This document shows positions 6,351 to 54,710 of a stretch of DNA of 64,000 nt, piece after piece (positions within the stretch are counted from its first letter, which is position 1; every line of letters starts with the position of its first letter). This DNA is from Streptomyces lydicus (lineage in GTDB: Bacteria; Actinomycetota; Actinomycetes; Streptomycetales; Streptomycetaceae). A program made the translations under genes and the position numbers. The stretch spans positions 1 through 64,000 of the forward strand of contig NZ_JNZA01000027.1 in assembly GCF_000717345.1 (NCBI RefSeq), in the 5' to 3' direction. Under the pieces are notes generated by a model that saw only the letters and a list, made by a program, of their open reading frames with translations, was not told the DNA's origin and made no database searches.

Positions 6351-6367
6351 TCTGACGCTCCGTCAGA
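6351..6367. promoter_or_regulatory. Regulon palindrome, perfect copy
   Basis: TCTGACG-CTC-CGTCAGA is a perfect 7-3-7 palindrome, 25 bp upstream of the flavin monooxygenase start. It is the clearest copy of the motif repeated 16 times in the window and is inferred to be a repressor operator. Confidence 0.8.
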
Positions 6368-6414
6368 TTCGATGTGTGTGCCGACTGTTCCATCGCCCAC
6401 GGGGACCGTCAATA

Positions 6415-6431
6415 GCTGACGACCGGTCAGC
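6415..6431. promoter_or_regulatory. Regulon palindrome, second upstream copy
   Basis: GCTGACG-ACC-GGTCAGC has one mismatch between its arms. Its centre lies 64 bp from that of the perfect copy, about six helical turns, in the same gap between the SDR stop and the monooxygenase start. Confidence 0.6.
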
Positions 6432-6449
6432 CACAGCGTCGTCCGGGGC

Positions 6450-7247
6450 TCACAGCACCGAGACGCCCGCGAGCCATCCGCCGTCGATCACGAACGGCTG
6501 CCCGGTGATGTACGACGAGTCCTCGCACGACAGGAAGAGCGCCAGCGCCGCGACTTCCTCCGGCCGGCCGACCCGCCCCAGCGGCACGAGCTTGCGGTAC
6601 AGCTCGTCCAGCGCCTGCGCCGCCGCCTCGGTGTCCGCTTCCGGGTCGAGCTGCGCGGGATTGCTCATGGCGGTGTCGATCGCGCCCGGGCAGACGGCGT
6701 TCACCCGGATCCCCTTCGCCGCCAGCTCAAGGGCGGCGACCCGGGTCAGCCCCACGATGGCGTGCTTGGTCGCGGTGTACGCGCCGACGTACGCCATACC
6801 GGTCACACCGGTGTACGACGCGGTGTTGACGATGGTCCCGCCGCCCGCCGCCTCGATCTCCGGCGCGACGGTCTTGATGCCGAGGAACGCACCGACCTGG
6901 TTGACCTGCACGATCTGCTGGAACTCCGCCAGCGGGGTGCTGGTCAGCTCATTGAAACGCAGGATGCCGGCGTTGTTGACCAGCCCGTCGATCTTCCCGA
7001 ACGCGTCCTTGGCGGAGGTGACGGCGGCCGCCCAGTCCTCCTCGCGGCCCACGTCCAGGTGGACGTACACGGCCCGCCCCTCCCCCGCCTCCTCCGCTAC
7101 CTCCTTGGCGAGCGCCTCCCCCTGCGCGTCGAGGACATCGGCGAGGACGACCCTCGCCCCCTCGCCGGCGAAGAGCCGCGCCTCCCGTTCACCCTGCCCG
7201 CGCGCCGCCCCGGTGATGAGGACGACGCGCCCGTCCAACTTGCCCAT
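6450..7247 (-). CDS. Short-chain dehydrogenase/reductase
   Basis: This 265-residue classical SDR oxidises or reduces a hydroxyl/keto group with NAD(H) or NADP(H). It has the cofactor motif TGAARGQG (12-19), NNAG (91-94), catalytic Ser144 and the YTATK pair Tyr157/Lys161, and ends in the usual FVIDGGW. ATG 7247 is chosen because AGGGAGG precedes it and translation gives the standard [13 protein letters not shown] opening; the frame stays open further upstream without support. It follows the F420-type oxidoreductase on the same strand and is probably co-transcribed with it from the palindromes at 8425 and 8467. It is a candidate for a beta-hydroxyacyl-CoA or ring-alcohol dehydrogenation step. 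Confidence 0.88.
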
Positions 7248-7422
7248 GAGAGCCTCCCTGGCTGCTCGGTCGAGGTGCGGATGCTCGGTACGCGCGAGGC
7301 GACCGGTGCCGCCGGACCCGCGGGGCACGCCAGGGCCCCGGGAGGGCGGGGCGACCGCCCGCCCGTACGGTCACGGCACCGGCGGACCGGCCGGCCACCC
7401 CGGCGGTGACGGCCACCGCCGC

Positions 7423-8406
7423 TCAGTTCAAACAGGGGGCGACGTCCGTCCCGAACGCCGCCATCTGATCCGTCAGCTCGGCCCGGCTTCGGCTGCGGAA
7501 CCGCACCTGGATCTGCGTCACGCCCATCGCCCCGTACTCCCGCAGCGAGGCCGCGATCCGCTCCGGGGGCCCGGTCAGGGCCCGCCGCCCGACGTCCCAC
7601 CCGGGCTCGCCGACGTACACCGGCTCGGCGATCGCGCCGATCACCGCCGGCTCCCGGACCCCGGCGGCCTCCCGCATCGCCCGCAGCCTGGCGATCTGCC
7701 CGGGCAGCGCCTCCCGCCGGTCACCCTGCGGGAGCCAGCCGTCCCCGCGCTCGGCGGCCCGGCGTACGGCGGCGGCCGAGGAACCGCCCACCCAGATCGG
7801 CGGCCGCGGCGTCTGCGCGGGCCGCGGCGCCTGCCCCAGCCCCTCGAAGGCGAACCGCTTCCCCGCGAACGCCGGGAACTCCTCACTCCCCAGCGCCGCC
7901 TTCAGCGCGTCGACGGTCTCGTCCAGCACCGCCCCGCGCTCCTCGAACCCGATCCCCAGCGCCGCGAACTCCTCCGGTACGTGCCCGGCCCCGACCCCGA
8001 GGATCAGCCGCCCGCCGGAGAGGTGGTCGAGCGTCGCGTACTGCTTGGCCGAGATCAGCGGGTGCCGGAGCCCGACCACCGCCACATGACTCAGCAGCCG
8101 CACCCGCTCCGTCGCCGCCGCCAGATACGCCAGCGTGGCGACCGGGTCGTACCAGACGGTGCTCATCGCCTCCGCCAGCCGCCGCGGAATCGCGATGTGC
8201 TCGCAGCAGCCGATGTACGCGAACCCGTACCGGTCCGCGGCCCGCGCGACCGCCACCAGATCGGCCACCCCCGCGGCGGCCTCCCACCCCTCCGCGAAGA
8301 GCACACTCTGCGACTGCACCGGCAACTGCATCCCGTACACCAGCCGCCCACCTTCGGGCCGCCACACCCCACCACCTGCGCCGTCCGTACCACCCGTGCC
8401 GTCCAC
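7423..8406 (-). CDS. LLM-class F420-type oxidoreductase
   Basis: The 327-residue protein is a luciferase-like TIM barrel of the actinobacterial F420-dependent type. It has the typical segments [47 protein letters not shown] and [23 protein letters not shown]. Such enzymes transfer hydride to or from coenzyme F420, or occasionally use FMN, so cofactor and substrate remain open. GTG 8406 has GGAGG close upstream. It heads a two-gene operon with the SDR, below two regulon palindromes. It is distant in sequence from the other luciferase-like protein at 5202, so the two probably catalyse different steps. Confidence 0.83.
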
Positions 8407-8424
8407 GCGCGCCCTCCGGCCATA

Positions 8425-8441
8425 TCTGACGATGCGTCATA
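8425..8441. promoter_or_regulatory. Regulon palindrome
   Basis: TCTGACG-ATG-CGTCATA lies 18 bp upstream of the GTG start of the F420-type oxidoreductase. The left arm is perfect and the right arm has one deviation from the core. Confidence 0.72.
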
Positions 8442-8466: not shown

Positions 8467-8483
8467 CCTGACGGGCCATCAGG
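8467..8483. promoter_or_regulatory. Regulon palindrome, second upstream copy
   Basis: CCTGACG-GGC-CATCAGG has one arm mismatch. It lies in the intergenic region before the F420-type oxidoreductase, 42 bp centre-to-centre from the first copy, exactly four helical turns. Confidence 0.6.
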
Positions 8484-8523: not shown

Positions 8524-9756
8524 TCAGCCTCTCGGCGCCGACGGTTCCCAGAGGCCCTCAGCCGTCAGGCCCAGCAGGTCGATCGCGTTGCCGCGGACGA
8601 TGCGTTCGACGGTGGCGGGGGGCAGGTGGGCCATCTGGGACTCGCCGACCTCGCGGGATTTCGGCCAGGTGGAGTCGGAGTGCGGGTAGTCCGTCTCGTA
8701 CAGGACGTTGCCGGGGCCGATCGCGTCGAGGTTGCGCAGGCCGAAGGCGTCGTCGAAGAAGCAGCCGTAGACGTGGTCGGCGAAGAGTTCGGACGGGGGG
8801 CGGAGGACCTTGTCGGCCACGCCGCCCCAGGCGCGGTTCTCCTCCCAGACGACGTCCGCGCGCTCCAGGATGTACGGGATCCAGCCGATCTGGCCTTCCG
8901 CGTACATGATCTTCAGGCGGGGGAAGCGGTCGAAGGCGCCGCTCATCAGCCAGTCGACCATCGAGAAGCAGCAGTTGGCGAAGGTGATGGTGGAGCCGAC
9001 GGCGGGCGGGGCGTCGGCGGAGGTGGACGGCATGCGGCTGCTGGAGCCGATGTGCATAGCGATGACGGTGCCGGTCTCGTCGCAGGCGCGCAGGAAGGGG
9101 TCCCAGTGGTCGGTGTGGACGCTGGGCAGGCCCAGGCGGGGCGGGATCTCGCTGAAGCAGACCGCCCGTACGCCGCGGGCGGCGTTGCGCCGTACTTCCG
9201 CGGCGGCGAGTTCGGGGTCCCACAGGGGGATGAGGGTGAGGGGGATGAGCCGGCCGCGCGCCTGGGGGCCGCACCACTCCTCCACCATCCAGTCGTTGTA
9301 GGCGCGCACGCCGAGGAGCCCCAGCTCGCGGTCCTTGGCCTCGGTGAAGGTCTGGCCGCAGAAGCGGGGGAAGGTGGGGAAGCAGAGGGCGGACTGGACG
9401 TGGTTGACGTCCATGTCGGCCAGTCGTTCGGGGACGCTGTACGAGCCCGGCCGCATCTGTTCGTAGGTGATGCCTTCGAGCTTGATCTCGTCGCGGGAGT
9501 AGCCGACGGCGGTGTCCAGGCGGGTCAGCGGGCGGTGCAGGTCTTCGTAGATCCACCAGTCGGCTATCGGTCCGTCGTCGCCGGGGGCGCCCATCTTTGG
9601 GGCGAATTTGCCGCCGACGAAGGTCATTTCCTTCAAGGGGGCGCGGACCACCCGCGGGCCGATGTCGTGGTACTTCGACGGGAGCCGGTCCCGCCAGACG
9701 TTGGGGGGCTCCACCGTGTGGTCGTCCACCGAGATGATCTTGGGGAAGGTCTCCAT
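8524..9756 (-). CDS. Metal-dependent hydrolase, amidohydrolase-2 (ACMSD-like) family
   Basis: This 410-residue protein is of the Amidohydro_2 type, a TIM-barrel family of hydrolases and non-oxidative decarboxylases. It opens with [12 protein letters not shown], and later shows the metal-site segments [21 protein letters not shown] and the C-terminal [13 protein letters not shown] with the catalytic Asp. Homologues of this long subtype are common beside actinobacterial acyl-CoA catabolic genes, but their reaction is not established, so hydrolysis or decarboxylation of a pathway intermediate is only an inference. The frame continues upstream, but ATG 9756 gives the family-like [13 protein letters not shown] and leaves the palindrome at 9777 just outside the gene, 20 bp upstream. 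It appears monocistronic. Confidence 0.82.
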
Positions 9757-9776: not shown

Positions 9777-9793
9777 TCTGACGGTCCGTCAGT
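9777..9793. promoter_or_regulatory. Regulon palindrome
   Basis: TCTGACG-GTC-CGTCAGT has perfect core arms and lies 20 bp upstream of the amidohydrolase start. It supports ATG 9756 as the start, because a longer reading frame would run through the site. Confidence 0.78.
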
Positions 9794-12949: not shown

Positions 12950-12956
12950 CGCGTCC

Positions 12957-14038: not shown

Positions 14039-14055
14039 CCTGACGCTTCGTCAGC
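14039..14055. promoter_or_regulatory. Regulon palindrome
   Basis: CCTGACG-CTT-CGTCAGC has perfect core arms and lies 57 bp upstream of the acyl-CoA ligase at 14113, after the terminator of the preceding unit. Confidence 0.78.
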
Positions 14056-14112: not shown

Positions 14113-15666
14113 GTGTTCGAAGCCGCTCGTGTGCAGACGCTCTGGGAACTGGTCGAGTACCGGGCGCGGGCCTCCCGCGGGGCGCCGATGTTCTTCGACG
14201 CGGACGGGCGGAGCGTCACCTTCGACGGGGTACGGGACGAGGCGCTGCGGGTGGCGGCCGGCCTGCGGGAGCTGGGGATCGGGGCCGGGAGCCGGGTGGC
14301 CTGGCAGCTGCCGAGCCGGATCGGGACGGTGCTGGTCTCGCTGGCGCTGGCCCGGCTGGGGGCCGTGCAGATCCCCGTCATCCCGCTGCACCGGGAGCGC
14401 GAAGTCGGCTTCGTCCTGGCCGAGTCGGCGGCGGAGTTCGTCCTCGTCCCGGGGGTGTGGCGGGGGTTCGACCACACCGCGATGGCGCGGAAGGTGGCGG
14501 CGGACGGGGTGCGGGTGGTGCCGGTGGAGGACGGGCTGCCGCGGGCGGATCCGGCCGGGGTGCCCGCGGTGGCGCCGGCCGAGGGGACGACCTGGATCTA
14601 CTACACGTCCGGAACGACCGCCGCCCCCAAGGGTGTCGAGCACACCGACGCCACGCTCCTCGCCGGCGGGGTGGGGCTGGCCACCGCACTGGGCATGTCC
14701 GCCCGCGACATCGGCTCGATCGCCTTTCCGTACGCGCACATCGCCGGCCCGGACTACGTCATCGCCATGCTGGTCAGCGGCTTCCCCGCGGTCATCCTCG
14801 ACAGCTTCGAACCGGGCCGGGCGGCGGACGTCTACCGGCGCCGGGGCGTCACCATGGCCGGCGGCAGCACCGCCTTCTACCAGGCGTTCCTGGACGAGTC
14901 CCGGCGCCGTCGGGCGGGGCGGCCGGGGGCCGGGCGGCTGATTCCGTCGCTGCGGCTGCTGTCCGGCGGCGGGGCGCCGCTGCCGCCGGAGCTCTGCACG
15001 GCGGCCCGGCGCGAGCTGGAGTGCGCGATCGTGCACGGGTACGGGATGACCGAGTGCCCGATGATCGCCATGGGCACGCCGTACGACAGCGACGAGCAGC
15101 TGGCCCGGACGGTGGGGAGGCCGGTGGTGGGGGCGGAGATACGGATCGTCCGGCCGGACGGGAGCGGGGCCGCGACCGGGGAGTGCGGTGAGGTGACGCT
15201 CAAGGGACCGATGCTCTTCCGCCGGTACACCGACCCGGCGCTGACCGCCGCCGCGTTCGACGCCGAGGGCTACTTCCACACCGGTGACCTGGGGCTTCTT
15301 CGTCCCGACGGCCATCTGGTGCTGACCGGGCGGCTCAAGGACATCATCATCCGCAAGGGCGAGAACATCTCGGCACAGGAGATCGAGGACCTGATCCACA
15401 CGCATCCGGCGGTGGCGGAGGCGGCGGTGATCGGGCTGCCGGACCGCGAGCGCGGGGAGCGGGTCTGCGCGGTGATCACGCCCGCCGATCCGGCCGCCCC
15501 GCCGCTCGCCCTCGACGCGCTCACCGCGCACCTGCGGGCGGCCGGGCTGATGACGCAGAAGCTGCCGGAGCAGCTGGAGAGCGTCGGGGAGCTGCCGCGC
15601 GGCGGGCCGCTGAACAAGGTGCTGAAGTCCGTACTGCGCGAGCGGTACGCGCGGGGTGCGCGGTGA
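14113..15666 (+). CDS. Acyl-CoA ligase, class I adenylate-forming (cyclohexanecarboxylate-CoA ligase-like)
   Basis: The 517-residue enzyme activates a carboxylic acid with ATP and CoA through an acyl-AMP. It shows the P-loop motif YYTSGTTAAPKG (165-174), HGYGMTECP, the hinge TGRLKDIIIRKGENISAQEIE and a C-terminal catalytic Lys in PLNKVLK (502). Its relatives are ligases for alicyclic and medium-chain acids. GTG 14113 follows a textbook AGGAGG at 14101-14106. A palindrome lies 57 bp upstream. A close paralogue with a frameshift lies at 54731, sharing the YYTSGTT/DIIIRKGENISAQEIE signatures and the same kind of operator. It may be co-transcribed with the small metal-binding protein gene at 15803. 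Confidence 0.88.
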   Translation: MFEAARVQTLWELVEYRARASRGAPMFFDADGRSVTFDGVRDEALRVAAGLRELGIGAGSRVAWQLPSRIGTVLVSLALARLGAVQIPVIPLHREREVGFVLAESAAEFVLVPGVWRGFDHTAMARKVAADGVRVVPVEDGLPRADPAGVPAVAPAEGTTWIYYTSGTTAAPKGVEHTDATLLAGGVGLATALGMSARDIGSIAFPYAHIAGPDYVIAMLVSGFPAVILDSFEPGRAADVYRRRGVTMAGGSTAFYQAFLDESRRRRAGRPGAGRLIPSLRLLSGGGAPLPPELCTAARRELECAIVHGYGMTECPMIAMGTPYDSDEQLARTVGRPVVGAEIRIVRPDGSGAATGECGEVTLKGPMLFRRYTDPALTAAAFDAEGYFHTGDLGLLRPDGHLVLTGRLKDIIIRKGENISAQEIEDLIHTHPAVAEAAVIGLPDRERGERVCAVITPADPAAPPLALDALTAHLRAAGLMTQKLPEQLESVGELPRGGPLNKVLKSVLRERYARGAR

Positions 15667-18090: not shown

Positions 18091-18107
18091 GCTGACTGTC
18101 CGTCAGA
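18091..18107. promoter_or_regulatory. Regulon palindrome in a divergent promoter
   Basis: GCTGACT-GTC-CGTCAGA has one arm deviation. It lies between the divergent starts of the FadD3-like ligase (18053) and the thiolase (18161) and could control both. Confidence 0.73.
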
Positions 18108-18160
18108 TTAGCGGTAGCCTCCTCCGCTGTCAGCACTGACGACCGACCACGGAGGTGGCG

Positions 18161-19312: not shown

Positions 19313-19318
19313 TCCGCC

Positions 19319-25941: not shown

Positions 25942-25958
25942 GCTGACGGCATGACAGG
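25942..25958. promoter_or_regulatory. Degenerate regulon palindrome over the tetR start codon
   Basis: GCTGACG-GCA-TGACAGG has a perfect left arm and a right arm matching four of six core positions. It overlaps the ATG at 25951 and might mediate autoregulation. Confidence 0.35.
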
Positions 25959-40068: not shown

Positions 40069-40085
40069 TCTGACGGTACGTCAGT
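40069..40085. promoter_or_regulatory. Regulon palindrome for the DUF35 gene
   Basis: TCTGACG-GTA-CGTCAGT has perfect core arms. It lies 58 bp upstream of the DUF35 start and 135 bp, centre to centre, from the nearest copy serving the divergent acyl-CoA synthetase. Confidence 0.78.
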
Positions 40086-40203: not shown

Positions 40204-40220
40204 CCTGACGTGTCGTCAGT
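40204..40220. promoter_or_regulatory. Regulon palindrome, distal copy for the acyl-CoA synthetase
   Basis: CCTGACG-TGT-CGTCAGT has perfect core arms and lies about 83 bp upstream of ATG 40304. Confidence 0.76.
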
Positions 40221-40228: not shown

Positions 40229-40245
40229 ACTGACAGAGCGTCAGC
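40229..40245. promoter_or_regulatory. Regulon palindrome, proximal copy for the acyl-CoA synthetase
   Basis: ACTGACA-GAG-CGTCAGC has one arm deviation. It lies 25 bp centre-to-centre from the distal copy and about 58 bp upstream of ATG 40304. Confidence 0.7.
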
Positions 40246-42562: not shown

Positions 42563-42641
42563 ACCCCGAACCGGCCCCGCCCGCACCCGGCCCGGCACCA
42601 CTCGTGAGCATCCCGCCCGCACTCCCTGGAGCCGCTCCCCC

Positions 42642-44218: not shown

Positions 44219-44781
44219 CTCCCGGCCTGCCCGTGTTCGGATTCGACTAGGTGGGCGCGCAGCCTGTCCAGCGCCCGGGCCCGGTGCCGGGCGGCGGTGC
44301 CGCGGTGCACCTTCATGATCTTCGCGGCCTGGTCAATGGTGTAGCCGTCCAGGTCGACGAGGATGACGATGCCGGCCTGCCGGTGCGACAGCAGCCCCAG
44401 CAGGCGGACCGCTTCGATCTCGGCGTGCCGGCGCTCCACCCCGCCGTCCCAGCCGCCGGGCCCCGCCGCCCCCGGTTCACCGCCCTCCTCCAGCCCGTCC
44501 AACCGGTCCACCAGGACCTGGCGCCGCTCCTTGCGCCGGGCGTCGCGGGCGACGTTGAGCACCGCGGTGAAGGCATAGGCGTACGGCTCCGGGTGGGCGA
44601 GGAAGCGCTGCGGGCGGGCGGCGAGTCTGAGGTACGCCTCGTGCACCACGTCCTCCGCCGACTGCCGTGAACCGGCCAGCATCACCGCTCTTCGGTAGAG
44701 CCGGGGCAGCAGCCCGCAGAAGACCTCGTCGAAGGCGGGTGACGCGCCGGACGACGCTGAGGGTGGTGTCGCATCGGCCAT
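44215..44781 (-). CDS. ECF/SigE-like RNA polymerase sigma factor
   Basis: The 188-residue sigma-70 family protein has region 2 (LPRLYRRAVMLAGSRQSAEDVVHEAYLRLAARPQRF) and region 4 (LLGLLSHRQAGIVILVDLDGYTIDQAAKIMKVHRGTAARHRARALDRLRAHL), separated by a Gly/Glu-rich linker. Proteins of this type direct polymerase to stress or envelope promoters. ATG 44781 lies 12 codons before region 2. The downstream membrane-protein gene overlaps by 4 bp and is a likely regulator of its activity. The gene is divergent from the flavin reductase, but the palindrome at 44954 is close to that gene and far (173 bp) from this one. Confidence 0.83.
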   Translation of the reverse strand: MADATPPSASSGASPAFDEVFCGLLPRLYRRAVMLAGSRQSAEDVVHEAYLRLAARPQRFLAHPEPYAYAFTAVLNVARDARRKERRQVLVDRLDGLEEGGEPGAAGPGGWDGGVERRHAEIEAVRLLGLLSHRQAGIVILVDLDGYTIDQAAKIMKVHRGTAARHRARALDRLRAHLVESEHGQAGR

Positions 44782-44953: not shown

Positions 44954-44970
44954 ACTGACGCTCCATCAGA
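44954..44970. promoter_or_regulatory. Regulon palindrome before the flavin reductase
   Basis: ACTGACG-CTC-CATCAGA has one arm mismatch and ends 12 bp before the ATG at 44983. Confidence 0.7.
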
Positions 44971-44982: not shown

Positions 44983-45612
44983 ATGATGGGACACGCCGGA
45001 ATGGCGGCCACGGCCGTGCGATACCTGCGCTCCGTCGGCGCACCGACCTCGGCCGCGGCACCGGCCACCCCCGCCGCGCCCGTCCCACGCCCGGCCCTGC
45101 GCGCCGTGCGCGAGGACGAGCGCGCCCCGCTGGACGCGGCCGAATTCCGCGCCGCCCTGGGGCACTTCGCCAGCGGCGTCACGATCATCACGGCCCCCGG
45201 GGAGCCCGGCCCGGCCGGCTTCGCCTGCCAGTCCTTCACTTCCCTGTCCCTGGACCCGCCGCTGGTGGCGTTCATGGTGGCGCGCACGTCGACGACCTGG
45301 CCGCGGATCGCCCGCGCCGGGGTGTTCTGCGTCAATGTCCTCGGCGCGGGCCACGGCGCGCTGTGCCGTGCCTTCGCGGTCAGCGGCGCCGACAAGTTCG
45401 CCGGCGTCCGCCACGTGCCGGCCCCGGCGACCGGCTCGCCGCGCCTGGCGGACGTCCCGGCGTGGATCGACTGCACGATCCACGCCGTGCACACCGGCGG
45501 CGACCACCTGATCGTGGTCGGCCGGGTCGACGCCCTCGGTACCGATCCGCGCGCCGCCGCGGCCGGCCCGCTCCTCTTCCACCGGGGCGCCTTCGGGCAG
45601 TTCAGCCCGTGA
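44983..45612 (+). CDS. Flavin reductase-like (HsaB type) component
   Basis: The 209-residue flavin-reductase-domain protein is of the type that supplies FMNH2 or FADH2 to two-component monooxygenases such as HsaAB. It shows FRAALGHFASGVTIIT, GFACQSFTSLSLDPPLVAFMVARTSTTWPRI, GVFCVNVLGAGHGALCRAFAVSGADKF and LLFHRGAFGQF. An Ala/Pro-rich leader of about 50 residues precedes the domain; ATG 44983, 44986 or 45001 are alternatives and no strong ribosome site is seen. It carries the regulon palindrome, but no monooxygenase gene is adjacent, so the luciferase-like enzyme at 5202 is a candidate partner. Its end overlaps the convergent MFS gene by 11 bp. Confidence 0.84.
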   Translation: MMGHAGMAATAVRYLRSVGAPTSAAAPATPAAPVPRPALRAVREDERAPLDAAEFRAALGHFASGVTIITAPGEPGPAGFACQSFTSLSLDPPLVAFMVARTSTTWPRIARAGVFCVNVLGAGHGALCRAFAVSGADKFAGVRHVPAPATGSPRLADVPAWIDCTIHAVHTGGDHLIVVGRVDALGTDPRAAAAGPLLFHRGAFGQFSP

Positions 45613-46927
45613 GCGCCACCGCCCGCACCCCGCCCCGCCGCTCGCGGATGACCAGGGCCATCAGGGCCGCCAGGGCGCACAGCGCCCCCGCGGTGTACCA
45701 GACCGGGTTGTACGTACCGAACGCGTCGCGCGCCAGGCCCCCCAGGAAGGCGATCAGCGCGGCACCCACCTGGTGCGCGGCCAGCACCCAGCCGAAGACG
45801 ATCGCGGCGTCCTCGCCGTAGTGCTCGCGGCACAGGGCGAGGGTCGGCGGTACGGTCGCCACCCAGTCCAGACCGTAGAAGACGATGAAGAAGACCATCG
45901 GCGGGTGGACGGTGTCGGCCAGCAGCAGCGGCAGGAACATCAGGGACAGGCCGCGCAGTCCGTAGTAGACGGCGAGCAGCCGGCGGGCGCTGAAGCGGTC
46001 GGTGAACCAGCCGGAGGCGACGGTTCCGGCGATGTCGAAGACGCCGATCACCGCGAGCAGCGACGCGGCCGCCGTCATCGGCATGCCGTGGTCGTGCGCC
46101 GCCGGCACGAAGTGGGTCTTGACCAGGCCGTTCGTCGTCGCACCGCAGATCGCGAAGGTGCCCGCCAGCAGCCAGAAGGGGCCCGTGCCGGCCGCCGAGA
46201 CGAGCGCCCGCACCGCGCGCCGGGCGGCCCCGCGCTGCGGAGGCGGCCTGGGGACGAACTCCGCCGCCCCGTACGGCGCGAGGCCCACGTCCGCCGGGTG
46301 GTCGCGCAGCAGCAGCCACACCAGGGGGACGACGGCGAGCGCGGCCAGTGCGACGGTCACCGCGGCCGGCCGCCAGCCGTGCCGCTCGACGACCACGGAG
46401 AGCGCCGGCAGGAAGATCAGCTGGCCGGACGCGCCGGCCGCGGTGAGGATGCCGGTGACCAGCCCGCGCCGCGCGGTGAACCACCGGCCGGTGACCGTCG
46501 CGGCGAAGGCCAGCGCCATCGAACCGCTGCCCAGCCCCACCAACACGCCCCAGTACAGGACCAGTTGCCAGCTCGACGTCATGAAGCAGGTCAGGCCGGC
46601 GCCGGCCGCGATCACCGTCAGCGCGCCGGCGACCACCCGCCGGATGCCGAACCGGTCCATCAGGGCCGCGGCGAACGGCGCCGTCAGCCCGTAGAGCGCC
46701 AGGTTCACCGAGACCGCGAAGCCGATCGTGCCGCGCGACCAGTGGAACTCGGCGTGCAGCGGCTCGATGAGCAGACCGGGGAGGGAGGCGAAGCCGGCCG
46801 CGCCGATGAGGGTGAGGAAGGTGACGGCGGCGACGGACCAGGCACGGTGCGGCCGCCGGCGACGGGGCGGGGCCGCCGGGCCCGCAACCTGTGCGCGGGC
46901 GGGCAGTTCGGAGGGGGTGAGGGTCAC
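45602..46927 (-). CDS. MFS transporter (monocarboxylate/oxalate-formate antiporter type)
   Basis: The 441-residue protein has twelve predicted membrane helices. The MFS pattern is visible in FHWSRGTIGFAVSVNLALYGLTAPFAAALMDRFGIRRVV and ASGWFTDRFSARRLLAVYYGLRGLSL. The family usually moves carboxylates. GTG 46927 has GAAGGTGG upstream and gives VTLTPSELP; an earlier in-frame start lacks support. It sits between the flavin reductase and the alcohol dehydrogenase operon and could import the pathway substrate, but no regulon palindrome lies in its promoter region. Confidence 0.83.
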   Translation of the reverse strand: MTLTPSELPARAQVAGPAAPPRRRRPHRAWSVAAVTFLTLIGAAGFASLPGLLIEPLHAEFHWSRGTIGFAVSVNLALYGLTAPFAAALMDRFGIRRVVAGALTVIAAGAGLTCFMTSSWQLVLYWGVLVGLGSGSMALAFAATVTGRWFTARRGLVTGILTAAGASGQLIFLPALSVVVERHGWRPAAVTVALAALAVVPLVWLLLRDHPADVGLAPYGAAEFVPRPPPQRGAARRAVRALVSAAGTGPFWLLAGTFAICGATTNGLVKTHFVPAAHDHGMPMTAAASLLAVIGVFDIAGTVASGWFTDRFSARRLLAVYYGLRGLSLMFLPLLLADTVHPPMVFFIVFYGLDWVATVPPTLALCREHYGEDAAIVFGWVLAAHQVGAALIAFLGGLARDAFGTYNPVWYTAGALCALAALMALVIRERRGGVRAVALTG

Positions 46928-46999: not shown

Positions 47000-48067
47000 C
47001 TAGAACGTCAGCACCGCCCGCGCCACCCGCCCGTGGTGCGCGTCGTCCGCCGCCTTCGCGAAGTCCTCCACCGGGTACGTCCTCGTCACCAGCTCGTCCA
47101 GCAGCAGCCGCCCCTCGCGGTACAGCCGGGCGTACAGCGCGATGTCCCGCTGCGGCCGCGACGAGCCGTACCGGCACCCCAGGATCGACTTGTCCAGATA
47201 CATCGACGACACCGGGAACGACGCCTCCGCACCGGCCGGTGGCACCCCGAGCAGCACCGCCTGGCCGTGCCGGTCCAGCAGCTCGACCGCCTGCCGGATC
47301 AGCCGGGTGCTGCCCACGCACTCGAAGGCGTGGTCGGCACCGGTCGGCAGGATCTCCTTCACGGCCTTGACGCCGTCCGCCACCGCCGACGCGTCCACGA
47401 AGTGCGTCGCCCCGAACTGCCGGGCCATCGCCTCCTTCGCCGGGTTGGCGTCCACCGCGACGATCGTCGACGCCCCGGCGATCCGCGCCCCCTGGAGCAC
47501 ATTGAGCCCGACGCCGCCGGCCCCGATCACCACCACCGACTCACCGCGGTCCACCCGCGCGCGGTTCAGCACCGCCCCCACCCCGGTCAGCACCGCACAC
47601 CCGATCAGCGCGGCCGAGGTCAGCGGGATCTCCTTGCCGATCTTCACCGCCTGCACCGCCTTGACGACCGTACGCTCCGCGAACGCCGAGTTCGAGGCGA
47701 AGTTGAACAGCTCGGCCGCCCCGCGCCGGAACGGCTTCCCCGGCATGCCGATCGCCGTACGGCACATCGTCGGCCGCCCCCGGTCGCACTCCGCGCACGC
47801 CCCGCAGTTGGCCAGCGTCGACAGCGCGACGTGATCGCCGGGCGCCACGTGCCCGACGCCCGCGCCCACGGCTTCGACCACCCCCGCCCCCTCGTGTCCC
47901 AGCACCACCGGCACCGGAAACGGAATCGTCCCGTCGACCACCGACAGGTCGCTGTGGCACAGCCCGGCCGCCCGGATGCCGACCAGCACCTCGCCCGGCC
48001 CCGGATCCCGCACCGTCAGGTCGTCCACGACCCGGGGCCGCTCACCGTCGAATATGACGCCTTTCAT
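47000..48067 (-). CDS. Zinc-dependent alcohol dehydrogenase (MDR family)
   Basis: The 355-residue medium-chain dehydrogenase has catalytic zinc ligands Cys37 (GLCHSD) and His58-Glu59 (GHEGAG), structural zinc ligands Cys88/91/94/102 (NCGACAECDRGRPTMC) and the Rossmann motif VIGAGGVGLNVLQG. It oxidises an alcohol to aldehyde or ketone with NAD(P). Its ATG overlaps the stop of the acyl-CoA dehydrogenase by one base, and it is the last gene of the SDR/acyl-CoA dehydrogenase/alcohol dehydrogenase operon starting at 50191 beside a palindrome. With the aldehyde dehydrogenase at 1867 it could convert an alcohol to an acid for CoA activation. Confidence 0.88.
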   Translation of the reverse strand: MKGVIFDGERPRVVDDLTVRDPGPGEVLVGIRAAGLCHSDLSVVDGTIPFPVPVVLGHEGAGVVEAVGAGVGHVAPGDHVALSTLANCGACAECDRGRPTMCRTAIGMPGKPFRRGAAELFNFASNSAFAERTVVKAVQAVKIGKEIPLTSAALIGCAVLTGVGAVLNRARVDRGESVVVIGAGGVGLNVLQGARIAGASTIVAVDANPAKEAMARQFGATHFVDASAVADGVKAVKEILPTGADHAFECVGSTRLIRQAVELLDRHGQAVLLGVPPAGAEASFPVSSMYLDKSILGCRYGSSRPQRDIALYARLYREGRLLLDELVTRTYPVEDFAKAADDAHHGRVARAVLTF

Positions 48068-49263
48068 CACCGCTCCACTCTGGGCAGGCCGAGCACGCGC
48101 TCGGCGATGATGGTGCGCTGGATCTCGTCCGAGCCGCCGTACAGCGTGTCGGCCCGGCTGAACAGGAACAGCCGCTGCAGCGCGTCCAGTTCGTACGGCG
48201 CCTGCGCGGTCCAGTCGAGGGGCCCCAGTGCGGCCGCGGCGCCCCGCACCCGCATCGCCAGTTCCCCGAGCCGCTGGTGCCAGCCGCCCCACAGCAGCTT
48301 CGCCACGCTCGGCGCGCCCGCGTCCCCGGCCGCCCCCAGGGTCCGCAGCGCGTTCCACCGCATCACCCGCAACTCGGCCCACTGCCGTACGAGTTGCTCG
48401 CGCAGCACCGGGTCGCGGAGCGCGCCGCAACGCACCGCCGCCGCGACCACCTCGCCCAGCTCCGCAGCGAACCCGATCTGCTGGACGAGCGTCGAGACCC
48501 CCCGCTCCAGCGCCAGCAGCCCCATCGCCACCCGCCAGCCGGCCCCCTCCCCGCCCACCACGTGCCCGGCCCGCGCCACCGCCCCGTCGAAGAACACCTC
48601 GTTGAACTCTGCCGTCCCCGACATCTGCCGGATCGGCCGCACCTCGATCCGCCCCGGCTGGTCCATCGGCACCAGCAGGAACGACAGCCCCCGGTGCCGC
48701 CGCTCACCCGGATCCGTCCGCGCGAGCACGAAGCACCAGTCGGCCTCCTTGGCCAGTGAGGTCCAGATCTTCTGCCCGCTGATCCGGTAGCCGGCCCCGT
48801 CCCGCACCGCCACCGTCCGCAGCCCCGCCAGGTCCGACCCCGCGTCCGGCTCGCTGTAGCCCTGGCACCACAGCTCCTCGCCCCGCGCGACGGCCGGCAG
48901 GAACCGCCGCCGCTGCGCCTCGTCCCCGTACGCGAGCAGCGTCGGCGCCAGCAGGTTCTCCCCGATGTGCCCGACCCGCCCGGGCGCCCTGGCCCGCGCG
49001 TACTCCTCGGCCCACACCACCTGCTGCGTCAGGCTCGCCGCGCGGTTGCCGTACGCACCGTGCGCGCGGTCCCACCCGAGCCCGATCCAGCCACCGGCCC
49101 CGAGCTCGCGCTCCCACGCCCGGCGCGCCACGGCCCCCTCGTGCTCACTCCCCGGCCCGCCACGGCCCGCCAACTCCGCGTACGGGCCCACGAGATGCCC
49201 CGCCAGCCACTCCCGGGCCGCCGCCCGGAACCCCTCGTCCGCACTCCCGAACGCAAAGTCCAC
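48067..49263 (-). CDS. Acyl-CoA dehydrogenase (FadE-type)
   Basis: The 398-residue FAD enzyme has the motifs WCQGYSEPDAGSDLAGLRTVAVRDG, KIWTSLAKEADWCFVLARTDP, RQMSGTAEFNEVFFDGAVA and the C-terminal GGSDEIQRTIIAERVLGLPR. It introduces an alpha-beta double bond into an acyl-CoA. GTG 49263 has GGGAGGG upstream; the frame is open further back but Arg-rich and unconvincing. It lies 34 bp after the SDR gene and overlaps the alcohol dehydrogenase start, so it is the middle of a three-gene operon. No catalytic Glu of the canonical C-terminal type is seen, consistent with variants of actinobacterial catabolic dehydrogenases. Confidence 0.87.
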   Translation of the reverse strand: MDFAFGSADEGFRAAAREWLAGHLVGPYAELAGRGGPGSEHEGAVARRAWERELGAGGWIGLGWDRAHGAYGNRAASLTQQVVWAEEYARARAPGRVGHIGENLLAPTLLAYGDEAQRRRFLPAVARGEELWCQGYSEPDAGSDLAGLRTVAVRDGAGYRISGQKIWTSLAKEADWCFVLARTDPGERRHRGLSFLLVPMDQPGRIEVRPIRQMSGTAEFNEVFFDGAVARAGHVVGGEGAGWRVAMGLLALERGVSTLVQQIGFAAELGEVVAAAVRCGALRDPVLREQLVRQWAELRVMRWNALRTLGAAGDAGAPSVAKLLWGGWHQRLGELAMRVRGAAAALGPLDWTAQAPYELDALQRLFLFSRADTLYGGSDEIQRTIIAERVLGLPRVER

Positions 49264-49297
49264 AACGCCCTCCCGGCCCGCACGTGCACGACAGGCC

Positions 49298-50191
49298 CTA
49301 CCGCTTCGCCGCCGCCTCCGCCATCGCCTCCAGCTGCGCCAGCATCGGCATGGGGTCGACGCCCACGGCACCCGGCACCACCTCGGCCACCCGTTCCGGT
49401 GTCCACCCGCCCTCGCCGGCGTACACGGAGCGCAGCTCCGCGGGCTGGGCCCACACCGCGATCTTCGGACCGGCCACCGTGTAGACCTGCCCGGTGACCT
49501 CGCGGGCCCGCTCGCTGAGCAGGTAGACGACGAACGCCGCCACGTCCTCCGGCTCGCCGATCTCCTTGAGTTCCATCGGCACCTTCGCCGACATCCGCGT
49601 CCGGGCGACGGGCGCCACCGCGTTGGCAGTCACCCCGTACTTGTGCAGGCCAAGCGCGGCGCTGCGCACCAGCGAGATGATCCCGCCCTTCGCGGACGCG
49701 TAGTTGGCCTGCGACACCGACCCCTGGTGGTTGCCGCTGGTGAAGCCCACCAGCGTCCCGGAGCCCTGGCGCCGCATGACCGCGGCCGCGGCCCGGAACA
49801 CCGTGAAGGTGCCCTTGAGGTGGGTGGCGACCACCGGGTCCCACTCCTCCTCGGACATGTTGAAGAGCATCCGCTCGCGCAGGATCCCGGCCACGCACAC
49901 CACGCCGTCGATCCGCCCGTACTGCGCCAGCGCGGTGTCCACGATCCGCTGCCCGCCGGCCATCGTGGAGACGTCGTCGGCGACCGCGGTGGCGACCCCG
50001 CCCGCCGCCTCGATCTCCTTCACCACCGAGTCGGCGATCCCGCTGCTCGGTTCGGCACCGTCGAGGGCGACTCCGAAGTCGTTGACGACGACCTTCGCCC
50101 CTTCGTGTGCGCAGGCCAGCGCCACCGCCCGCCCGATGCCGCGCCCGGCCCCCGTGACGGCGACCACCTTGCCGGCCAGGAAGTTCCCCAT
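49298..50191 (-). CDS. SDR, 17beta-HSD4-like hydroxyacyl-CoA dehydrogenase
   Basis: The 297-residue SDR has the cofactor motif TGAGRGIG (13-20), VNDFGVALDGAEPSSGIADSVVKEIEAAGG as in peroxisomal multifunctional enzyme-type (3R)-hydroxyacyl-CoA dehydrogenases, and catalytic Tyr164/Lys168 (NYASAK). The NNAG motif is changed to CVAG. It probably oxidises a beta-hydroxyacyl-CoA to the ketoacyl-CoA. ATG 50191 lies 21 bp from the palindrome at 50213. It is the first gene of the operon with the acyl-CoA dehydrogenase and the alcohol dehydrogenase, divergent from the cyclase-family gene. Confidence 0.88.
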   Translation of the reverse strand: MGNFLAGKVVAVTGAGRGIGRAVALACAHEGAKVVVNDFGVALDGAEPSSGIADSVVKEIEAAGGVATAVADDVSTMAGGQRIVDTALAQYGRIDGVVCVAGILRERMLFNMSEEEWDPVVATHLKGTFTVFRAAAAVMRRQGSGTLVGFTSGNHQGSVSQANYASAKGGIISLVRSAALGLHKYGVTANAVAPVARTRMSAKVPMELKEIGEPEDVAAFVVYLLSERAREVTGQVYTVAGPKIAVWAQPAELRSVYAGEGGWTPERVAEVVPGAVGVDPMPMLAQLEAMAEAAAKR

Positions 50192-50212: not shown

Positions 50213-50229
50213 TCTGACGGACCGTTAGA
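50213..50229. promoter_or_regulatory. Regulon palindrome in a divergent promoter
   Basis: TCTGACG-GAC-CGTTAGA has one arm change. It lies 21 bp upstream of the SDR start and 71 bp upstream of the cyclase-family gene, so it may control both. Confidence 0.73.
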
Positions 50230-50300: not shown

Positions 50301-51227
50301 ATGCCCCTGCCGCAGGAGTTCCACGACATCGCCGCACGCGTGAACAACTGGGGGCGCTGGGGGGCGGACGACGAGATCGGCACCCTCAACCTGATCACCG
50401 ACGAGGTGGTGCGCGCGGCCGCCGCCACCGTCCGCAGCGGCCGCCGCATCCCCCTCGCCCTCCCTCTCCGGCAGGACGGCGTGCAGACCGGGATGATCCC
50501 CGGCCGGGTCAATCCGCTGCACACCATGACCGCCATCAATCAGGAGATCTTCGGGCCCGGCACGGTCGCGACCTCGGACGACGCGGTCACCATGGGCCTG
50601 CAGGCGGCCACCCACTGGGACGGCCTCACCCATGTCTCGCACTCCGGGCGGCTCTACAACAACCGCCCGGCCGACGCGGTCACCGCGCACGCCGGCGCCA
50701 CCGTCCTCGGCATCGAGAAGGCCACCCCGATCACCTCGCGCGGCGTCCTGCTGGACGTGGCCCGCGCGCACGGCACCGACCTGCTGTCCGGCGGGCACGC
50801 CGTCACGCCGGAGGACCTGGACGCCGCCGAGGAGCTGGCCGGAACGACGGTCCGGGCCGGCGACATCGTCCTCGTACGGACCGGGCAGCTGCGGCACTAC
50901 CTCGCCGGCGACCGGCAGGCGTACGCGTTCCCCTCCCCCGGGCTGTCGCTGCGCACCCCGGAGTGGTTCCACGCCCGCGACGTGGCGGCGGTCGCCAACG
51001 ACACCCTGACCTTCGAGATCTTCCCGCCGGAGATCGAGGACCTGTGGATGCCGGTGCACGCGCTCCACCTCGTCGAGATGGGCATGCTCCAGGGCCAGAA
51101 CTGGAATCTGGAGGAGCTGGCGGCGGCCTGCGCGGAGGAGGGCCGCTACAGCTTCTTCCTGTCCGCCATGGCGGAGCCGTTCGTCGGCGGCTCCGGTACA
51201 CCGGTCGCGCCGGTGGCCGTCCTCTGA
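50301..51227 (+). CDS. Cyclase-family (kynurenine formamidase-like) metal hydrolase
   Basis: The 308-residue protein belongs to the cyclase family PF04199, which includes kynurenine formamidase, isatin hydrolase and some polyketide cyclases. Metal ligands are expected in ATHWDGLTHVSHSGRLYN (THxD..TH pattern, about 102-112) and a later His-rich MPVHALHLVEMG. It hydrolyses an amide or lactone-like bond, or opens a ring. ATG 50301 follows AGGAGG. The gene has no same-strand partner and is divergent from the SDR operon across one palindrome. Ring opening of an alicyclic diketone or lactone would fit the regulon but is inference. Confidence 0.85.
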   Translation: MPLPQEFHDIAARVNNWGRWGADDEIGTLNLITDEVVRAAAATVRSGRRIPLALPLRQDGVQTGMIPGRVNPLHTMTAINQEIFGPGTVATSDDAVTMGLQAATHWDGLTHVSHSGRLYNNRPADAVTAHAGATVLGIEKATPITSRGVLLDVARAHGTDLLSGGHAVTPEDLDAAEELAGTTVRAGDIVLVRTGQLRHYLAGDRQAYAFPSPGLSLRTPEWFHARDVAAVANDTLTFEIFPPEIEDLWMPVHALHLVEMGMLQGQNWNLEELAAACAEEGRYSFFLSAMAEPFVGGSGTPVAPVAVL

Positions 51228-52437: not shown

Positions 52438-53415
52438 TCAGCCGAGCAGGTCCGCGGCCAGCGCTTCTTCCGCCTCGGCCGCGACGCCCCAGCACGCGGC
52501 CCGCAACCAGGCCCGCTTGAGATGCAGATGCACATCGGCCTCCCAGGTGAAGCCCATCCCGCCGTGGACCTGCAGACAGTCCCGCGCGTTGCGCACCGCG
52601 GCCTCGTCGGCCAGCAGCTTGGCGCCCGTCACATCCATGGCACCCTCCGTGACCGCCGCCGCATAGACGGCACTTCGGGCTATTTCTGCACGTACGAGCA
52701 TCTGGGCGCACAGATGCTTGACCGCCTGGAAGGAGCCGATGGGCGCACCGAACTGGGTGCGCTCACGGGCATGGGCGACCGCCGTCTCGACCGTGCGGAC
52801 CGCGCTGCCCACCTGCTGCGCCGCGGTCAGCAGCGCGGCCTCGCGCCGCAGCCGGGACGGGTCGGGGCCGGCGAGGGGCGCGCCGCGCGGGAAGTCCGTG
52901 ACGCGGGCGAGCGGGGTGAGCGGGTCGACGGAGGTGAGCGGGGCACACGCCACCCGGTCCGGCGCACTCCGGTACACACCCGCCGCGCGCCCGGGTGCGC
53001 CCGCGGCGTCCCGCCCGCCCCCCTCCACCAAGATCAACTCATCGCAGTCGGCCGGGTGTTCCCACAGCACCGCCTCCGCCGAGCCGTCGCACAGCCCGGC
53101 GGTCCGTTCGCCGGCCGCCACCCCGTCGACCACCCCGGCCAGCAGTTCGCACGCCACCAGCGGCCCCGGCAGCAGCGCCCGGCCGACCTCCTCGAAGACC
53201 AGCACCGCCTCCGGCAGTCCGAGCCCCACCCCGCCGGCCTCCTCGGGCAGGCGCAGCGCGAAGAACCCGGCCGCGCCCAGCTCCCGCCACAGCGCACGGT
53301 CCAGGGCCGGTTCGTCGACCGCCGCCCGCAGCCGGTCCCGGCCGAACCGGCCGTCCAGCAGCTTCCGCGTCCCGTCCCGCAACGCCCGCTGTTCGTCGGT
53401 GAGTTGGAAGTGCAC
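52438..53415 (-). CDS. Acyl-CoA dehydrogenase, short subunit with catalytic-Glu motif
   Basis: This 325-residue acyl-CoA dehydrogenase is shorter than usual (about 380), with a reduced middle domain. It keeps LPEEAGGVGLGLPEAVLVFEEVGRALLPGPLVA and the C-terminal RTQFGAPIGSFQAVKHLCAQMLVRAE and HGGMGFTWEADVHLHLKRA, with the catalytic Glu in TWEA. Its GTG lies 7 bp after the stop of the companion dehydrogenase, so the pair probably forms a heteromeric alpha2beta2 enzyme of the kind known for actinobacterial steroid side-chain degradation (ChsE1-ChsE2). Both are below the palindrome at 54617. Confidence 0.86.
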   Translation of the reverse strand: MHFQLTDEQRALRDGTRKLLDGRFGRDRLRAAVDEPALDRALWRELGAAGFFALRLPEEAGGVGLGLPEAVLVFEEVGRALLPGPLVACELLAGVVDGVAAGERTAGLCDGSAEAVLWEHPADCDELILVEGGGRDAAGAPGRAAGVYRSAPDRVACAPLTSVDPLTPLARVTDFPRGAPLAGPDPSRLRREAALLTAAQQVGSAVRTVETAVAHARERTQFGAPIGSFQAVKHLCAQMLVRAEIARSAVYAAAVTEGAMDVTGAKLLADEAAVRNARDCLQVHGGMGFTWEADVHLHLKRAWLRAACWGVAAEAEEALAADLLG

Positions 53416-53422
53416 CGGCCGC

Positions 53423-54595
53423 TCACCGCCCCTTCGGCAGGCCGAGTATCCGCTCGGCGACGATGTTCTGCTGGATCTGCGAGGTGCCGGCGGCGATGGT
53501 GTACGAGAGGGAGGAGAGCCGGTCGGCGACCCACTCGTGTCCGGCGTCCAGCGCCCCGGCGCCCAGCACCTCCGCGGCCGCGTCGTACAGCTCCTGGCGG
53601 GCGTGCGAGTAGCGCAGCTTGAACACCGAGCCGCCGGTCCCGGGGACGCCGCCGCCCTTCCCCGGAGCGGCCGACGCCCCTCGGCCGGCCGGAGCCGCCC
53701 CGGCCTCGCTGACGTTCCACTGGATCAGCCGCCACAGCGCCGCGAAGTCCGCGTTCAGCCGGCCGAGTCTGCGGCGCAGCACGGCATCGTCCCAGCGGCC
53801 GTTGGCGCGGGCGGCGCGGGCCAGCGCGCCGAGCACCCGCCGGCAGGCCACCACCTCGCCGACGAAGGCGGTGCCGCGCTCGAAGGAGAGCGTCACCATC
53901 GTCACCCGCCAGCCGTCGTTCTCCGCCCCGACGCGGTTGCCGGCCGGTACCCGCACCTCGTCGAGGAACACCTCGGCGAACTCGGCCGTCCCGGCCAGCG
54001 TCCGCAGCGGGCGGACGGTGACGCCGGGTGCGTCCATCGGCATCGCGAGCCAGGTGAGGCCCCGGTGCCGCGGCGCGTCCGGGTCCGTCCGCACCAGCAG
54101 CTCGCACCAGTCGGCGACCTCGGCGTGCGAGGTCCAGATCTTGGCGCCGGTCACGACGTAGTCGTCGCCGTCGCGCACCGCCCGGGTCCGCAGCGACGCC
54201 AGGTCCGAGCCGGCGTCCGGTTCGCTGAAGCCCTGGCACCACACCTCGTCGCCGCGCAGGACGGGCGGCAGCCAGCGCTGCCGCTGCGCCGGGGTGCCCT
54301 CCACCGCGATCGTCGGGCCCGCGTGCAGCAACCCGACGAAGTTCGCCCCCACATAAGGGGCCCCGGCCCGCTCGGTCTCCTCCAGGAAGATCAGCCGGAT
54401 GGTCGGGGCGGCGTCCCAGTGCACGTCGGCATACCCGGCGTCGTGGAGCATCCGCTGCCAGGCGGTGTCGTACGCCCGCCGGGCCGGCCAGTCGCGCGGG
54501 TCGGGCCGGGCGGGCAGCGTCGGCAGCACCGAGGCGAGCCAGTCCCGCAGCCGCACCCGGAAGGCCCGCTCCTCCTCGGTGTACGCGAGGTCCAT
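53423..54595 (-). CDS. Acyl-CoA dehydrogenase, large subunit of a probable heteromeric pair
   Basis: The 390-residue dehydrogenase has WCQGFSEPDAGSDLASLRTRAVRDG, KIWTSHAEVADWCELLVRTDP, RTLAGTAEFAEVFLDEVRVP and the C-terminal AGTSQIQQNIVAERILGLPKGR, but lacks the GGxGFTWE segment that the neighbour supplies. That complementarity is the hallmark of heteromeric actinobacterial enzymes acting on bulky CoA thioesters. A Gly/Ala/Pro-rich insertion lies near residue 310-325. ATG 54595 is 22 bp from the palindrome at 54617. It is first in the operon and divergent from the frameshifted ligase. Confidence 0.87.
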   Translation of the reverse strand: MDLAYTEEERAFRVRLRDWLASVLPTLPARPDPRDWPARRAYDTAWQRMLHDAGYADVHWDAAPTIRLIFLEETERAGAPYVGANFVGLLHAGPTIAVEGTPAQRQRWLPPVLRGDEVWCQGFSEPDAGSDLASLRTRAVRDGDDYVVTGAKIWTSHAEVADWCELLVRTDPDAPRHRGLTWLAMPMDAPGVTVRPLRTLAGTAEFAEVFLDEVRVPAGNRVGAENDGWRVTMVTLSFERGTAFVGEVVACRRVLGALARAARANGRWDDAVLRRRLGRLNADFAALWRLIQWNVSEAGAAPAGRGASAAPGKGGGVPGTGGSVFKLRYSHARQELYDAAAEVLGAGALDAGHEWVADRLSSLSYTIAAGTSQIQQNIVAERILGLPKGR

Positions 54596-54616
54596 CCCGC
54601 TGCCCCCTCACCCACT

Positions 54617-54633
54617 TCTGATGCTCCGTCAGA
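54617..54633. promoter_or_regulatory. Regulon palindrome before the dehydrogenase pair
   Basis: TCTGATG-CTC-CGTCAGA has one arm change and lies 22 bp upstream of the acyl-CoA dehydrogenase start. Confidence 0.76.
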
Positions 54634-54693
54634 TTCAGGCTAACCGCCGCCCCGTGGACCGACAAGGCATGCCGCCGTACGCTCGGACGAGAA

Positions 54694-54710
54694 ACTGACG
54701 TAACGTCAGA
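54694..54710. promoter_or_regulatory. Regulon palindrome before the frameshifted ligase
   Basis: ACTGACG-TAA-CGTCAGA has perfect core arms and lies 20 bp upstream of ATG 54731, 77 bp centre-to-centre from the copy facing the dehydrogenase pair. Confidence 0.78.

Follow-up and report, generated by a model that had tools for sequence, protein, structure and literature searches.

KstR and KstR2 of mycobacterial cholesterol catabolism are TetR repressors whose operators are scattered among genes of sterol and acyl-CoA catabolism, and a further TetR protein (Rv0767c and G155_05115) goes with a palindromic "motif X", which is found both at genes induced by phytosterols and close to the start of the regulator gene, as described in PMC6593523. 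Moreover, the regions recovered with Rv0767c by chromatin immunoprecipitation are rich in GAC and GTC (PMC10312376), and a motif logo is listed for it in PMC4482099. In Streptomyces coelicolor, the TetR gene SCO4421 lies near afsK and is on in spore chains, and the accessible part of PMC3878966 gives no target, operator or ligand for it. Here, a 64,000-nucleotide stretch of Streptomyces lydicus (assembly GCF_000717345.1, contig NZ_JNZA01000027.1, positions 1 to 64,000 of the forward strand; hereafter the window) was analyzed, in which an initial annotation had noticed 16 copies of a short palindrome dispersed among catabolic genes. These palindromes are quite probably the operators of one TetR repressor, most likely the protein encoded at 25951-26598.

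Palindromes of constant spacing in the window

All 16 palindromes listed in the initial annotation were found, six of them perfect and ten deviating at a single one of the 12 arm bases, the 15-bp core CTGACG-N3-CGTCAG beginning one base after each coordinate given there. In 60 first-order Markov simulations of the window, sites with at most one mismatch numbered 0.52 on average and 2 at most, and perfect palindromes 0.03 on average and 1 at most; a chance origin is therefore rejected. The count at up to three mismatches (67, against 70.6 expected from shuffling) is uninformative on close matches. The 3-bp spacer is constant, as had been claimed: when spacings of 0-10 were scanned in the window, the 16 sites with at most one mismatch stood at spacing 3, and the sole other spacing was 10 bp, with two pairs of one mismatch each. 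For the whole genome, 17 perfect sites compare with 1 for a reversed-pattern control, and 147 sites with at most one mismatch compare with 24. The window makes up less than 0.8% of the genome, yet it holds 6 of these 17 perfect sites and 16 of these 147, far above its share.

By site centre, and according to gene calls based on GC frame, every copy is intergenic (16/16), also as claimed, the intergenic share of the window being 9229 of 64,000 bases. Site 54695 touches the end of a weak open reading frame (ORF) at 54706-55104 (minus strand), in conflict with the ORF of an adenosine monophosphate (AMP)-binding ligase, and we take this weak ORF as spurious. Other statements on position need correction. 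Instead of most copies, about half (8/16) lie within 90 bp of a called start, or 9/16 if the ligase starts at 54748. Also, the statement that no copy lies beside afsR or a sigma factor is not strictly right, since site 9778 shares its intergenic region with afsR (called start 231 bp away) and site 44955 shares one with an extracytoplasmic function (ECF) sigma gene (277 bp away). The predicted operators are as follows.

6352-6366: operator, perfect (palindrome scan)
6416-6430: operator, one mismatch (palindrome scan)
8426-8440: operator, one mismatch (palindrome scan)
8468-8482: operator, one mismatch (palindrome scan)
9778-9792: operator, perfect; between amidohydrolase and afsR
14040-14054: operator, perfect (palindrome scan)
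18092-18106: operator, one mismatch; common to divergent FadD3-like and Ltp promoters
28695-28709: operator, one mismatch; acyl-CoA dehydrogenase promoter
29857-29871: operator, one mismatch; thiolase promoter
40070-40084: operator, perfect (palindrome scan)
40205-40219: operator, perfect; in tandem with 40230-40244
40230-40244: operator, one mismatch (palindrome scan)
44955-44969: operator, one mismatch; between ECF sigma gene and flavin reductase
50214-50228: operator, one mismatch; between divergent short-chain dehydrogenase/reductase (SDR) and cyclase genes
54618-54632: operator, one mismatch; acyl-CoA dehydrogenase promoter
54695-54709: operator, perfect; upstream of the AMP-ligase ORF 54748-56247
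25943-25957, plus strand: candidate autoregulatory operator CTGACGGCATGACAG, two mismatches; spans the start codon of tetR and the last part of a -10-like box, TAAGCT

A predicted 19-bp operator conserved in orthologous promoters

For comparison, 80 named loci centered on the TetR gene were used, nearly all from Streptomyces and reaching at most 10 kb to each side of it. Ortholog counts leave out alignments below 55% identity, alignments starting after residue 40 and genes with less than 200 bp of upstream sequence, and a site in these counts has at most one mismatch. In the named loci, spacing 3 gives 54 perfect and 253 one-mismatch sites, whereas the ten other spacings between 0 and 10 give 0 perfect and 3-15 one-mismatch sites. 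Four sites are in the S. griseus locus L089. Among these 307 sites, A stands at position -1 in 219 and T at +17 in 260; in the window the same bases are found in 11/16 and 12/16 sites, against base frequencies of about 13-14%. Since the outer A and T are conserved, the operator would be the 19-bp palindrome ANCTGACGNNNCGTCAGNT, longer than the 17 bp first described.

Conservation in orthologous promoters, a check that the initial annotation had itself put forward, was found for the core genes in other Streptomyces. A site stands upstream of the orthologs of the thiolase (71/71), acyl-CoA dehydrogenase (65/65), FadD3-like ligase (54/54), Ltp (53/54, the divergent site common with FadD3) and ATP-grasp synthetase (33/34), and less frequently of DUF35b (19/46) and flavin reductase (4/11). 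No site was found in the named loci upstream of the orthologs of afsK (0/66), afsR (0/4) or the PNPOx gene (0/61). For other genes outside the regulon, the flavin adenine dinucleotide-binding gene at 36735 has a site in 1/8 and the gene at 43559 in 1/3 orthologs. Genes near the window ends mostly have no usable ortholog within 10 kb of TetR.

Seven of the 80 named loci (L054, L055, L074, L079, L080, L096 and L099), four of them contigs of 3-5 kb, hold TetR and its start site and no other site with at most one mismatch, and in these the protein may have another role.

Proposed target units and a possible pathway

The number of genes, 25, agrees with the initial annotation, but they fall into 15 transcription units, grouped by eye, instead of 12; together they may serve one pathway.

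1867-6326, minus: unit of luciferase-like monooxygenase, amidohydrolase 3 and aldehyde dehydrogenase; no usable ortholog in named loci
6450-8340, minus: unit of luciferase-like monooxygenase 2 and SDR; no usable ortholog in named loci
8524-9756, minus: amidohydrolase 2; closest solved chain DitZ (8uyr); site in 1/1 ortholog
14131-15666, plus: AMP-binding acyl-CoA ligase; site in 1/1 ortholog
16461-18053, minus: FadD3-family acyl-CoA ligase; site in 54/54
18155-20613, plus: unit of Ltp (lipid-transfer/thiolase), DUF35 (ChsH2-like) and crotonase; site in 53/54 Ltp orthologs
26831-28632, minus: unit of acyl-CoA dehydrogenase and F420H2-dependent quinone reductase-like protein; site in 65/65
29876-31066, plus: thiolase-domain protein, its ATG lying 4 nt past the operator; site in 71/71
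39492-39935, minus: DUF35 OB-fold protein (DUF35b); site in 19/46
40397-43493, plus: unit of ATP-grasp acyl-CoA synthetase and crotonase; site in 33/34 synthetase orthologs
45106-45612, plus: flavin reductase; site in 4/11
47000-50191, minus: unit of SDR, acyl-CoA dehydrogenase and zinc alcohol dehydrogenase; no usable ortholog
50301-51227, plus: PF04199 cyclase; no usable ortholog
52438-54595, minus: unit of two acyl-CoA dehydrogenase subunits; site in 1/1 ortholog of the first gene
54748-56247, plus: AMP-binding ligase; from the ORF list, the GC-frame call beginning too late, at 55351

The major facilitator superfamily transporter at 45602-46927 may belong to the 47000-50191 unit. The ligase at 16461-18053 falls in the NCBIfam FadD3 family (792 bits, cut-off 657), and the protein at 18155-19312 matches the lipid-transfer proteins PRK07855 (580 bits, cut-off 469). 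By sequence, the closest solved chain of Ltp is the lipid-transfer protein 6ok1, and that of the acyl-CoA dehydrogenase at 27301-28632 is Tcur3481 (6wy8), both of which we take to be linked to steroid degradation. The set also includes several acyl-CoA dehydrogenases and crotonases, DUF35 proteins of the ChsH2-like type, two luciferase-like monooxygenases and a protein resembling F420H2-dependent reductases. As a whole it looks like a set for degrading a cyclic isoprenoid acid, and a retro-aldol cleavage of the side chain may be part of the route. More broadly, the enzymes suggest steroid- or terpenoid-like acyl-CoA catabolism.

Among the neighboring genes, 33662-34663 encodes an NsdA-family TPR regulatory protein in which the C-terminal part of the model is matched (305 bits), and at 43559-44685 there is the ECF sigma factor with an overlapping downstream gene, which has no Pfam match and perhaps encodes its anti-sigma factor.

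A TetR protein probably tied to the palindromes

Neither the TetR gene nor the two-mismatch site at its start appeared in the initial annotation, and no regulator was proposed there.

25951-26598, plus: TetR-family protein of 215 residues, proposed regulator; PF19352 (TetR_C_38) at 6e-70 on the C-terminal part

This protein is presumed to be the counterpart of S. coelicolor SCO4421, by its position beside afsK. It is 88-94% identical across the 80 named loci and 95% identical to a protein of S. nigrescens, and its close relatives match PF00440 and PF19352. Its model is all-helical and confident (predicted local distance difference test score of 91.7), and the closest solved folds are TetR proteins, EthR leading, KstR being absent by name among the 50 fold matches listed. 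The protein is tied to the palindromes by sites at its own gene, by co-occurrence and by invariant residues of the recognition helix, which gives the identification good but indirect support.

Regarding the first of these, CTGACG-N3-TGACAG, with two mismatches, covers the tetR start in 80/80 named loci. In other families, 13 of 20 TetR loci have a site with at most one mismatch within 400 bp upstream of the approximate start, where about 1.35 would be expected from site density. For example, a perfect site stands at -42 in genome G070 and at -45 in G130. In six loci of family f18 the sites lie 229-364 bp upstream of the aligned TetR start, and open frames of 292-304 residues suggest an N-terminal extension that would bring these sites to the true start. 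Among these 20 loci outside the genus, no site was found upstream of tetR in G031 and G022.

Co-occurrence was evaluated in 296 genomes of the class, TetR carriage being defined as a relative at an E value of 1e-20 or better. TetR is carried by 53 of the 296, and at least five perfect sites are present in 36/53 carriers versus 2/243 non-carriers, that is in 21/28 carriers of the genus (the genome of the window included) and in 15/25 outside it. The associated p value of 5e-13 overstates independence because of phylogenetic clustering. In family f14, seven carriers have 6-14 sites and the non-carriers 0, 0, 0, 1 and 10. Moreover, the recognition helix keeps T51, S52 and A54-F60 without change in an alignment of 19 hand-chosen sequences, the most distant being 41% identical to the window protein. 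In G031, which has no perfect sites, the TetR relative (L144) lies beside homologs of DUF35, Ltp and the ATP-grasp synthetase, and in its helix the P of position 53 is replaced by T.

Several observations weigh against this assignment. The tetR-start site of Streptomyces has two mismatches and is partly coding, which makes its conservation alone weak evidence, and the five tetR-start sites of Sporichthyaceae have two (four genomes) or three (one genome) mismatches. The co-occurring genomes fall into few families, and hence represent few independent events. Fewer than five perfect sites are present in 7/28 carriers of the genus (0 in G277, 1 each in G153 and G234) and in 10/25 carriers outside it (0 in G031 and G022), and two TetR-negative genomes, both in families with TetR carriers, have 10 sites (G150, 68% complete) and 5 sites (G152, 93% complete). 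A site stands upstream of the ortholog of UGT, a gene outside the regulon, in 2/3 cases. Also, according to PMC3878966, deletion of the spore-expressed SCO4421 gave no overt phenotype. The two-mismatch start site, the retention of TetR in Streptomyces with few sites and this deletion would all agree with a different conserved regulator, encoded elsewhere, that owns the sites, TetR being merely linked to afsK and some of the genes. We regard such a regulator as unlikely in view of the co-occurrence of TetR and motif across the class, the sites upstream of TetR genes in other families and the invariant helix residues. Moreover, the other seven TetR-like matches of the genome are at most 35% identical to the window protein, over partial stretches.

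Position of the operator in the promoters

A hexamer of the form TANNNT stands at offset -4 from the operator in 59/65 acyl-CoA dehydrogenase, 54/54 FadD3 and 32/33 synthetase promoters, and its last two bases are therefore the first two of the operator. In thiolase promoters the hexamer starts inside the operator, at offset +6, in 62/71, and in 63/71 the next few bases bring an ATG or GTG; in Ltp promoters it stands at offset +23, 8 bp past the operator, in 45/53. At the tetR loci, TAAGCTGACG is found in 80/80. Operator and -10-like box overlap at tetR and at four of the five conserved promoters that were examined, which is the geometry expected of a repressor, with start positions predicted from sequence. 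Against giving these numbers full weight, the TANNNT tallies are raw counts, and at offset -4 the final T belongs to the operator itself.

Some TetR proteins activate, so the TetR regulator could be an activator of these promoters instead of a repressor. This is quite improbable, given that a -10-like hexamer overlaps or lies inside the operator at 4/5 promoters, where a bound activator would block polymerase, a consideration that depends on the predicted start sites.

The sites, their conservation, the promoter geometry, the co-occurrence and the invariant helix were obtained by computation, whereas binding, repression, ligand and substrate in the following model are inferred. A TetR dimer would bind the 19-bp palindrome ANCTGACG-N3-CGTCAGNT, which overlaps a -10-like hexamer (mostly TANN/CT) at four of five promoters and lies just upstream of one at the fifth; with the operator in this position, a bound dimer should keep RNA polymerase from the promoter. 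Release would come from a metabolite of the pathway, plausibly an acyl-CoA thioester, and would turn on some 15 transcription units with 25 genes for an acyl-CoA degradation route that would resemble steroid or terpenoid side-chain and ring breakdown. The repressor gene itself would probably also be switched on.

Sites elsewhere in the genome

Outside the window, 11 perfect sites are present, 10 centered in intergenic DNA and one intragenic. Six of the 11 stand upstream of a called start; the genes there fit the regulon in three cases (luciferase-like monooxygenase, AMP-ligase and zinc alcohol dehydrogenase) and do not fit in three (lytic polysaccharide monooxygenase, DUF5685 protein and fumarase-type lyase). 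Among ten hand-chosen neighbors of perfect or one-mismatch sites, an amidohydrolase 2 also fits and three have no family; of the 147 sites with at most one mismatch, a hand-picked part was read. At five of the 11 perfect sites (L001, L002, L006, L008 and L015, each at 1501-1515) the palindrome runs over a neighbor's stop codon, and in L002 over two convergent ones.

Some of the sites outside the window may be background. Enrichment only upstream of acyl-CoA catabolic genes, as had been anticipated, was not observed, the motif not being confined to acyl-CoA genes. Sites inside genes or beside unrelated functions, which had been named as evidence against a regulon, do occur in part, outside the window only, all sites of the window being intergenic. 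The idea of one catabolic regulon is supported as far as the binding sites of one regulon and the conservation at core genes are concerned, but not as a confinement to acyl-CoA genes.

Each perfect copy could form a stem of 6 bp closed by a loop of three bases, and five perfect sites outside the window overlap stop codons, as transcription terminators or other RNA hairpins might, but these were rejected as a very improbable explanation, since the sites of the window lie upstream of genes, at a 3-bp spacing only, with a conserved A and T outside the stem and with no T tract after them in the sequences inspected.

Chromosome-wide palindromes in Sporichthyaceae

The most surprising result is the pattern found in Sporichthyaceae (loci L133-L137, L153-L192 and L226-L241), where all five genomes analyzed (G012, G035, G053, G069 and G085) carry TetR and have, listed in ascending order and not by genome, 109, 113, 119, 135 and 218 perfect sites, controls giving 0-1. 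Protein matches name G012 as Sporichthya polymorpha and G035 as S. brevicatena. An even sample of 800 kb from G012 contained 19 perfect and 75 one-mismatch sites, whereas spacings 2 and 4 yielded 5 and 2 one-mismatch sites, respectively, and none that were perfect. Eleven of the 19 perfect sites are intragenic, and over the 94 sites there is an intergenic enrichment (34/94 vs 13%). The sites are not promoter-directed, 26/94 being near starts vs 22% (p 0.14), which counts against the assignment proposed above. The outer A occurs in 32/75 and the outer T in 28/75 of the one-mismatch sites, against a 14% background, and in 5 and 7 of the 19 perfect sites; from the excess in one-mismatch sites, this palindrome looks like the same 19-bp operator. 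Along the chromosome, 135 perfect sites have exponential-like gaps (Kolmogorov-Smirnov p 0.79) and some unevenness (chi-square p 0.014), mainly through a denser stretch at 3.25-3.5 Mb.

A comparison of G012 with G035, about 90% identical over 93 kb aligned, allowed 15 of 25 sites to be aligned. Arm bases are identical in 173/180 and spacer bases in 35/45 positions (Fisher p 0.0003), and 12 of the 15 sites stay within one mismatch. Moreover, half-sites that belong to palindromes are fully conserved in 84% of 19 cases, compared with 57% of 101 lone half-sites (p 0.02, one-sided). With arms conserved above both spacers and lone half-sites, the Sporichthya sites appear to be under selection. A mobile repeat was rejected, as the flanks differ from site to site. 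Also rejected was a clear exclusion of sites opposite the presumed origin, which was placed with the help of a gyrase A gene: of eight bins, the most distant one holds 11 sites, where about 17 would be expected.

Ten neighbors were scanned out of 26 sites near a called start, and they are mostly not catabolic: two DUF222 proteins, a hydrolase, a histidine kinase, a succinyl-CoA-ligase type protein, a transaldolase, gyrase A, a ketopantoate hydroxymethyltransferase, a reductase and one without family. Two DUF222 genes of S. polymorpha (L155:18286-19647 and L163:522-1937) have the palindrome upstream, followed by similar sequence. It is conceivable, and we hold it only as a tentative idea, that this actinobacterial TetR family keeps one 19-bp operator while its role changes: in Streptomyces and its relatives it would repress a pathway, and in Sporichthyaceae it would bind hundreds of sites across the chromosome, many of them intragenic, with a nucleoid-organizing or cell-cycle function similar to that of SlmA instead of a control of single genes. 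No open-licence literature on Sporichthya with TetR and palindromes was found.

Comparison with known systems

Within Streptomyces, SCO4421 shares with the window protein the TetR family and the gene neighborhood, being presumably, by position, its ortholog. No assigned target for this afsK-adjacent regulator was found in the open-licence literature, nor, in searches with the arm sequences, DitZ and related topics, a description of this regulon. A conserved Streptomyces regulator gene beside afsK would gain an operator, a target list and a testable ligand class, and a dispersed acyl-CoA regulon would be marked around a classic locus of antibiotic regulation.

In mycobacteria, Rv0767c is like the window protein a TetR protein with a palindrome at catabolic genes, a likeness by description only. 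PF19352 is found in 0/14 control genomes. Of the nine genomes compared from family f4, presumably Mycobacteriaceae, eight give background TetR matches only (best 1.1e-12), and G031 alone encodes a protein closely related to that of the window. A common origin with the Rv0767c system is thus a lead, not a result. As for KstR and KstR2, their operators presumably differ from that of the window.

SlmA, which we take to be a TetR-family nucleoid occlusion factor with many chromosomal sites, also inside genes, would resemble the Sporichthyaceae pattern only. The window protein scores below the cut-off of the NCBIfam SlmA model (29.1 bits vs 120), and, unlike SlmA, Sporichthya has no clear depletion of sites opposite the presumed origin. 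If the Sporichthyaceae pattern is true, a family of pathway repressors would have turned into a chromosome-wide binding protein. Taken together, the window adds a further system to the known TetR regulons of acyl-CoA catabolism, and Sporichthyaceae show a chromosome-wide form of it.

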